Source of the DNA: an uncultured Prochlorococcus sp.
Lineage (GTDB): Bacteria > Cyanobacteriota > Cyanobacteriia > PCC-6307 > Cyanobiaceae
Assembly (NCBI GenBank): GCA_913048245.1
Contig: CAJWWR010000006.1
Coordinates: 1-45,872, forward strand
Direction: 5' to 3'
Length of the DNA: 45,872 bases
Positions 21,525 to 23,569 of this stretch are shown in pieces. The notes below the pieces were generated by a model that was given only the letters and a program-made list of their open reading frames with translations, did no database searches and was not told the origin of the DNA. The position numbers and the translations under genes are program-made. Positions within the stretch are counted from its first letter, which is position 1. Each line of letters opens with the position of its first letter.

Positions 21525-22430
21525 ATGTCAATTACATCTACCAATGATTCTGCAAGCAAATTAACTAATACTGATTGGGAATTAGATTTCTATTCAAGAC
21601 CAATTCTTGAAAAAAATGGAAAAAAAAGGTGGGACCTAATTATCTCATCAACTTCAAATTTCAATCACGAAGAAAATTTCTACTGGAACAAAACTTGTCC
21701 TCCAAATGAGGTCAATTCAATTTGGCTAACTAAATCACTAAGCGAAGCGATAGAAAATGCCTCAATAATGGGATATGGGAGACCAGAAAGAGTTAGATTC
21801 TGGAGGTCCTCCATGAAATCAATAATAAAAAAATCTTTGGAAAATCTGGGAATTGAACCTCTAATAAGTCGAAGAACTTACTCTCTTTTTGAAAGAATTG
21901 AATATTTTGAAAAAGAAGTATATCCAAATGAGGAAGGATATATAAGAGGGGTGCTAGCGCCGTCTTTCTCATCTCAAATTGCTAATGAACCTAAACCTCT
22001 TCCTGAAGCAGTAAGAGGGGATTCATTAGCAATCTCTGAATTGTCAATTAGAGAATTAAAAAAGGCAAATACATGGCCTATTGAATTTGGGGATATTTTT
22101 CCAATAAGAGAAAATATAAACGATGATTATTTTGTTCCGGGTTTGAGGCTTTTCAGTGAAAACAGAGCAATTGCTCTTGCTGCATGGTTTAGTAGCCTTG
22201 AACCAGTTAAATTAGAAATCAACAAAGGCAGACTCATACTGGAAGCACTTGAAAATGACAACTGGTTAGTTTCAGACTTTCCAAATAAAGATGCGGAAGC
22301 GTTAAAACAAAAATTTTCTGAATCTAGGAAGTTAGCCAATGGCTACCAATTTATTTCCATCCAAACCGACCCTTATATTGAAGAATTTGCGGGGTTCTGG
22401 TTACTCAAAGACATTGATCTTATAAATTAA
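21525..22430 (+). CDS. Tab2/Atab2-like RNA-binding protein
   Basis: 301 residues of the Tab2 family (DUF1092), with the characteristic start WELDFYSRPILEKNGKKRWD and VRFWRSSMKSIIKKSLENLG. In Chlamydomonas Tab2 and Arabidopsis Atab2, members bind the leader of psaB and promote translation and assembly of photosystem I. Placement directly after an S1-type RNA-binding protein (two-base gap) supports a translational role in photosystem assembly. The laccase-domain gene starts four bases later. Confidence 0.85.
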   Translation: MSITSTNDSASKLTNTDWELDFYSRPILEKNGKKRWDLIISSTSNFNHEENFYWNKTCPPNEVNSIWLTKSLSEAIENASIMGYGRPERVRFWRSSMKSIIKKSLENLGIEPLISRRTYSLFERIEYFEKEVYPNEEGYIRGVLAPSFSSQIANEPKPLPEAVRGDSLAISELSIRELKKANTWPIEFGDIFPIRENINDDYFVPGLRLFSENRAIALAAWFSSLEPVKLEINKGRLILEALENDNWLVSDFPNKDAEALKQKFSESRKLANGYQFISIQTDPYIEEFAGFWLLKDIDLIN

Positions 22431-22434
22431 ATTA

Positions 22435-23215
22435 ATGGATTATATTCAAATACCTTTTCAAAAACACTTTATTACCATAGAGGATTTAAAAATAAATTAC
22501 TACACATCACCTCTTTTAAATAAATTTAAATTTATCCATGCATATTTCACTAAAAATAGCCATGAATTTGATCTTGAATTATTATCAAATGGACTTCAAT
22601 TAAAAAAAAAACTATAAATTAAATCAGGTTCATAGTAATAAATTGGTCCTAGGATCAAGTCTCGATAAAAAACAAACAATTAATGGAGATGGAATAGTTA
22701 GTGATCTAAAAAACCAGAATTTATGGGTCTATACTGCAGATTGCCTTCCAATTTTATTTGCTGATAAACAAACCAGAAATGTAGCTGCAATACATTGCGG
22801 GAGATTAGGTTTAGAGAAACAAATAATTAAGAATACTATAAATTTATTTGAACAGAGAGGTTCATTAAGAACAGAATTACTAGTCTCGATAGGTCCTTCA
22901 ATCTCAAAATTAAATTATGCACTAGATATCAAAACTATAAATAAATTCAAGAAAAGCTCCGCAGATGACGAAAGAAAAGAAACATTAATAATTGAATCAA
23001 GCAAAAGAAATCATGATAATAACAACAACCTAATAGATAAAACCTTATTCCTCTTAGATATAAAAGGATATGCATTAAAACAACTTTGCAATGAGGGGAT
23101 CCCTAGTGAGAATATTGAAATCTCTGAAAAATGCACGTATGACTTACCAAATGAATTTCACTCATGGAGAAGGACAAAAACAAAAAAACGGCAATGGAGT
23201 TTCATTTGTTCATAA
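22435..23215 (+). pseudogene. Laccase-domain (YfiH/PgeF family) gene, frameshifted at a 10-A run
   Basis: Two adjacent frames make one protein of this family. Frame one (22435-22617, 60 residues) ends LQLKKKL-stop. Frame two resumes across 22607 onward as NYKLNQVHSNKLVLGSSLD, containing the family's NQVHS motif (His metal ligand), and continues to YTADCLPILFAD and IHCGRLGLEKQI (Cys and His ligands). Position 22602-22611 is a run of ten A; nine would restore a single ~259-codon frame. The second half has no ATG before the NQVHS motif. It is either a sequencing error, a genuine inactivating indel, or a site of transcriptional slippage. Members are zinc purine-nucleoside phosphorylases/adenosine deaminases, or correct peptidoglycan misincorporation. 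Confidence 0.85.
22602..22611 (+). repeat. Homopolymer A10, frameshift site
   Basis: Ten consecutive A between TT and CTATAAATT. Deleting one base joins the N-terminal 55 codons to the laccase-domain body. Runs of this length are prone both to replication indels and to RNA polymerase slippage. Confidence 0.9.
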
Positions 23216-23218
23216 AAT

Positions 23219-23569
23219 TTAATTGCGATTGCATGTGTTTTCGGCTAGATCATTAGCTAAAAGTATCTGCGTCATTTCATTTTTGTTATCTACTCTAAAG
23301 ATTTGTGCAGACAAAAAAGTGTCATCTGAAGCAAAAGGCTTTATCTTAATTTTTGTTCCTTTAGGAAAATCCTTTTTAAGCATTTCTAAAGCTGTTTTTT
23401 CTTGTAGACTTTTAACCTTAATGCAAGGTAAAGAAACTATTAGTTTTCTATTTTGATCTCCAATTATTATGTTTTGAGTAGTATTAATTTGTAAGATTTC
23501 TGCAGAGAAAACATTTAAAGGGAAGAAAAACAAAATAATCAAGACTAGAGAAAATAAAATCTTTTTCAA
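23219..23569 (-). CDS. Secreted small SNase-fold-like protein
   Basis: 116 residues. The first 22 residues (MKKILFSLVLIILFFFPLNVF, cut after SA) form a signal peptide. The mature part begins EILQINTTQNIIIGDQNRKL and continues VSLPCIKVKS, the start of a small barrel like staphylococcal nuclease (OB-type) domains, with KGTKIKIKPF later. Catalytic residues of true SNase are not obvious, so it may only bind. It lies after ilvB on the same strand with a 65-base gap. The function is unknown. Confidence 0.7.
   Translation of the reverse strand: MKKILFSLVLIILFFFPLNVFSAEILQINTTQNIIIGDQNRKLIVSLPCIKVKSLQEKTALEMLKKDFPKGTKIKIKPFASDDTFLSAQIFRVDNKNEMTQILLANDLAENTCNRN

Follow-up and report, generated by a model that had tools for sequence, protein, structure and literature searches.

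The locus lies in a window of 45,872 nucleotides (the whole stretch of DNA analysed) and holds pgeF/yfiH, a conserved cytoplasmic enzyme gene of the yfiH/ylmD family, which is read here as two parts in different frames that meet at a run of ten A's (Table 1). This window corresponds to contig C6. The draft genome to which it belongs has a size of 1.10 Mb in 66 contigs and a completeness of 77.8%, complete genomes of the genus, most likely Prochlorococcus, being about 1.7 Mb (266 genus genomes, one per species). Its G+C content is 34%, and its genes include those for the ribulose-bisphosphate carboxylase large subunit, Psb27 and acyl-ACP reductase. In a conserved arrangement, pgeF is adjoined by a Tab2-like gene and ilvB, and the gene order of the nearest relative, G150, matches that of the window (S1-domain protein, Tab2-like, pgeF, convergent orf116, ilvB and hemH). 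The DNA identity with G150 is only 75%, so no genome of the same species was present in the comparison. The convergent 116-aa protein shares 64% identity with its G150 counterpart and has no Pfam or NCBIfam match.

Table 1. Features at the pgeF locus, in window coordinates.
Feature	Position	Strand	Evidence
Tab2/Atab2-like RNA-binding protein, upstream neighbour, intact	21525..22430	+	PF20429 and PF06485; order kept in G150
5' part of pgeF	22435..22617	+	Translation; BLASTP match to the N-terminus of intact same-genus genes, 39-60% identity
A10 run, +1 frame switch	22602..22611	+	Read straight from the sequence; run absent here in 39 same-genus relatives
3' part of pgeF with the catalytic residues, 201 codons and stop	22610..23215	+	Translation; PF02578, E 3.8e-40; TIGR00726
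Longest downstream-frame ORF with a standard start (TTG, 190 aa), without Q64 and H66	22643..23215	+	137.4 bits, under the TIGR00726 cut-off of 141.15
116-aa protein, convergent downstream neighbour, intact	23219..23569	-	Conserved in G150

As written, frame 0 runs from ATG 22435 for 60 codons to the stop TAA at 22615-22617, and its product ends in GLQLKKKL. The downstream part is read in the +1 frame relative to frame 0, which is open over 22604-23212 and was translated without a stop for 201 codons from AAC 22610. Over 200 codons of this part, the remaining two frames contain 22 and 26 stops, which indicates that the open frame did not arise by chance; at this base composition, the chance probability of a 201-codon open frame is about 2e-7. 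The switch is bounded by the downstream-frame stop at 22601-22603 and the frame-0 stop, and the A run occupies most of this interval, so pgeF is not a single continuous reading frame in this genome but is broken at the run. The original prediction had placed the switch exactly at A10 and had described the downstream frame as free of other stops, and both points were confirmed from the sequence and from the translation of the two parts. It had also assigned the first 55 codons and the rest of the protein to different frames; the frames do differ, but the portions with counterparts in relatives comprise 56 codons upstream and 201 codons downstream. A run of nine or twelve A's brings the two parts into one frame, for a protein of 259 or 260 aa, and eleven A's yield a dead product of 62 residues.

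The identity of the gene was assessed with the protein joined across the run. It scored 149.8 bits against TIGR00726 (peptidoglycan editing factor PgeF), for which the curated cut-off is 141.15, and 135.5 bits against PF02578 (cut-off 22.9), and its closest solved relatives were YfiH chains of the E. coli type. In E. coli YfiH, His124, Asp89 and Cys107 form the catalytic triad, with His71 and Gln69 as substrate-site residues (PMC8844914). In the alignment to the YfiH chains, Q64, H66, D85, C103 and H120 of the joined protein correspond to Q69, H71, D89, C107 and H124 of the E. coli enzyme, giving a predicted catalytic Asp-Cys-His triad plus the substrate-site Gln and His, and all five residues are located in the downstream frame. 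In the earlier description as a laccase-domain gene, the name "laccase" is historical, and the joined protein passes the curated PgeF cut-off. The residues that had been read as metal-ligand motifs are kept downstream, but they represent an Asp/Cys/His catalytic site with Gln and His (PMC8844914) and not a proven copper site. The 60-residue N-terminal piece alone had no family match among the Pfam and NCBIfam profiles. The locus is thus a broken (or misread) copy of pgeF, and PgeF activity from it (hydrolysis of UDP-MurNAc-L-Ser or cleavage of purine nucleosides) is only putative.

The HAGWRG motif of E. coli YfiH appears genus-wide as HCGR[KLMI]G in the 39 aligned pgeF genes (HCGRLG in the window, 22790-22813), which swaps out the W-R pair beside the catalytic His. 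HCGRLG was considered as a sign of decay and rejected, because the change from HAGWRG is genus-wide. The gene evolves fast in the genus, with pN/pS of about 0.4-0.6 between distant species, and its PgeF may have a different activity or substrate.

The gene was present in 216 of the 266 genus genomes; among the 87 with a completeness of at least 90%, 84 carried it. Each of the 39 same-genus pgeF genes in the alignment is one ORF that covers both halves. A stop inside the domain was seen only in this genome in a search of 60 relatives, and the same was true among the matches listed in a genus-wide search. Counting the A's at this site in related genomes, a check that had been proposed with the original prediction, gave a longest run of 3-8 in the 39 relatives, with the genes intact. 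Runs of A9 or A10 occur elsewhere in pgeF in many of these relatives and are in frame every time. When the A10 tract was searched together with its flanks in the 266 genus genomes, it was found only in its own genome, and no A10 allele was found in viral contigs. Removal of one A, which had been suggested to join the protein, does restore the frame, but A12 restores it equally, and most relatives have one codon more at the junction than the nine-A version, so that A12, and not A9, equals their length. On these lengths, the simplest history would be an ancestral segment of twelve-A length that subsequently lost two bases; an alternative history would be the loss of a codon followed by the gain of one A.

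Selection on the gene was assessed against the sister G150, and pN/pS came to 0.39 for the upstream part and likewise to 0.39 for the downstream part. This value lies within the genus norm and is lower than the median of 0.55 for the remaining genus pairs of comparable synonymous divergence. In a relative-rate test with seven outgroups, 14-20 changes were unique to the window and 18-25 to the sister, with no excess on the window branch. No second disabling mutation, either a further stop or an indel, was found in the window pgeF. Neutral evolution would be expected to produce 0.49 new stops per 1% divergence, so any unconstrained period of the gene would span less than about 6% divergence (95%), a limit that considers point mutations only, with simple mutation weights. 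A long-standing pseudogene in decay would fit the Tyr at residue 60, at the junction, where Cys is invariant in 39 of 39 relatives. However, there is no further stop or indel and no rate acceleration, the catalytic residues are kept, and the near-invariant columns departed from number 6 of 72 in the window and 8 of 72 in the intact sister, and we regard old decay as extremely improbable. The argument made earlier from the intact downstream codons, that they speak against long-standing decay, was supported by constraint, relative rates and relatives together.

Homopolymers elsewhere in the genome were surveyed at a subset of sites, in the stretches around listed A9+ runs, and 85 A/T tracts of at least nine were scored. 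Within ORFs of 100 codons or more, 57 of them were A-sense and 9 T-sense; the other 19 fell in neither class. Among the 85 inspected, the pgeF A10 is the only tract that breaks a gene. One other tract, a T9 (L084, G000:C2:48813), had the geometry of a frameshift and was considered as a second case, but was rejected, as a gene starts just after the tract according to the reading frames, not to homology. Four further A10 runs among the scored tracts lie within ORFs and are all in frame, which argues against an assembly that errs at homopolymers in general. The break thus stands alone, and a single miscount is compatible with it. The longest homopolymer among the sites fetched was an A16 run outside long ORFs (L081, G000:C2:20061-20076). 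In 29 larger window genes (31 kb), sense-strand A runs of at least nine numbered 0 against 3.8 expected from codon shuffling, and A8 runs in the same genes were as expected (11 against 9.6). This suggests a mild avoidance of slippage-prone runs in the window genes, although 57 A-sense tracts lie in ORFs of the genome.

Several routes by which a full-length protein might still be made were considered. Reinitiation in the downstream frame was rejected, as there is no ATG, GTG or TTG before H66, and a restart at TTG 22643 would not give the full active site because Q64 and H66 are missing. Ribosomal -1 frameshifting on the A run was also rejected, since it enters the third frame, that of the A11 product, and meets an immediate stop. 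Slippage during transcription has precedent: A or T runs of at least nine slip in bacteria, long poly(A) runs of insect endosymbionts are reported to yield 12-50% corrected transcripts (PMC5009743), and Blochmannia genes with a frameshift do not evolve at an unusually raised rate (PMC3017870). Together with the equal purifying constraint on both halves, these reports favour a real, older indel that would be tolerated because RNA-polymerase slippage puts a usefully large fraction of the transcripts back in frame, as in Buchnera and Blochmannia, and an intact, constrained protein would be predicted equally by such a slippage-rescued indel. Nevertheless, rescue of the window frame requires a -1 or +2 change in the transcript, whereas about 80% of transcription insertions, the frequency of which grows with run length, are of a single nucleotide, leading to A11, and transcription deletions are rarely tied to runs (PMC5574713). 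Deletion slippage by E. coli RNA polymerase was undetectable on the poly(A) runs tested (PMC6260861). Since the commonest slippage on bacterial A runs (+1) produces A11 and its dead product, slippage could give only leaky rescue, which is possible, and efficient or programmed rescue is unlikely. The allele occurs in no relative, so an old age of the indel is only putative, and we consider an older, tolerated indel improbable.

The original prediction had gone further, raising RNA-polymerase slippage that makes two products from one gene, a 60-residue peptide and a full protein. The sole support for such a programmed gene is that the switch falls exactly at a slippery run. Programmed slippage would call for a conserved slippery run, and the run is not conserved (3-8 A's in the 39 relatives; the tract in 0 other of the 266 genomes), which argues against programming. 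Furthermore, the short product has no family match, and the N-terminal part has the same pN/pS as the rest, with no sign of a separate role. With the commonest slippage product, A11, out of frame (PMC5574713) and no deletion slippage on poly(A) detected for E. coli RNA polymerase (PMC6260861), this part of the prediction found no support; nothing in the results points to a programmed gene with two products, and we give the idea hardly any credence.

Considering all the above results, we propose that an accidental length change of the A tract put the two pgeF parts out of frame, originating either from recent DNA-polymerase slippage in the cell lineage or from amplification, sequencing or assembly outside the cell. 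Ordinary translation of the gene as written would produce only the 60-residue N-terminal piece, which lacks the catalytic residues. With a real indel, RNA-polymerase slippage may leak some full-length protein, though solely from transcripts that have lost one A or gained two. An accidental length change confined to this one genome, whether real and young or introduced by assembly or amplification, is very probably the explanation. From the observed frame switch, the intact relatives, the absence of decay and the uniqueness of the break among the tracts examined, we infer recency or artefact; because all close relatives examined are intact, the most likely cause is a mutation of very recent date or a slip in sequencing, and not a regulatory device. 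A sequencing error and a very recent indel had been among the readings favoured from the start, and the relatives and rates agree with these two. By judgement and not by computation, a real young indel stands at close to an even chance, and an assembly or amplification error at somewhat below even. The share given to a slippage-tolerated indel overlaps with that given to a real indel, since a real indel may leak.

If the break is purely an artefact, the assembly miscounts a tract that is in frame in the genome itself, at nine or twelve A's. This would account for one homopolymer length being the only defect in the gene, for relatives that are all intact and, with an in-frame A12, for exactly the length of the relatives, and the source is a 66-contig, 78%-complete draft. 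On the other side, the 84 other A/T tracts of at least nine that were examined, including the four in-frame A10 runs in ORFs, include no broken gene, so miscounting is not general and the artefact half of the explanation is weakened; a miscount has a substantial probability, somewhat below even. One A run in a draft genome is no ground to record a conserved enzyme gene as lost or as two genes. A real core-enzyme frameshift in a free-living picocyanobacterium, persisting because slippage at A10 supplies enough full-length PgeF, is rather unlikely; if a real, maintained A10 with corrected transcripts did exist, the poly(A) frameshifts of insect endosymbionts would have an equivalent in a free-living organism.

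The homopolymer break in pgeF is a known kind of event. Compared with the PgeF/YfiH/YlmD family (PF02578 Cu-oxidase_4, TIGR00726; E. coli YfiH 1z9t, 7f3v), the joined protein is alike in passing the cut-off and in the five aligned residues, and the window gene differs in its frame, broken at A10, and in HCGRLG for HAGWRG. With the poly(A) frameshifts of Buchnera and Blochmannia (PMC5009743; PMC3017870), it shares an AT-rich reduced genome and a single indel in a homopolymer of at least nine, in a gene otherwise intact and constrained. In contrast to these endosymbionts, the window comes from a free-living cyanobacterial genus, its allele occurs in one genome and is known from DNA alone, and slippage does not favour the change required (-1 or +2). 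The dnaX gene of Thermus thermophilus, in which slippage on nine Ts is productive (PMC5009743), likewise contains a run of slippage-prone length inside the gene, whereas the run in the window is not conserved and its short product has no known function.
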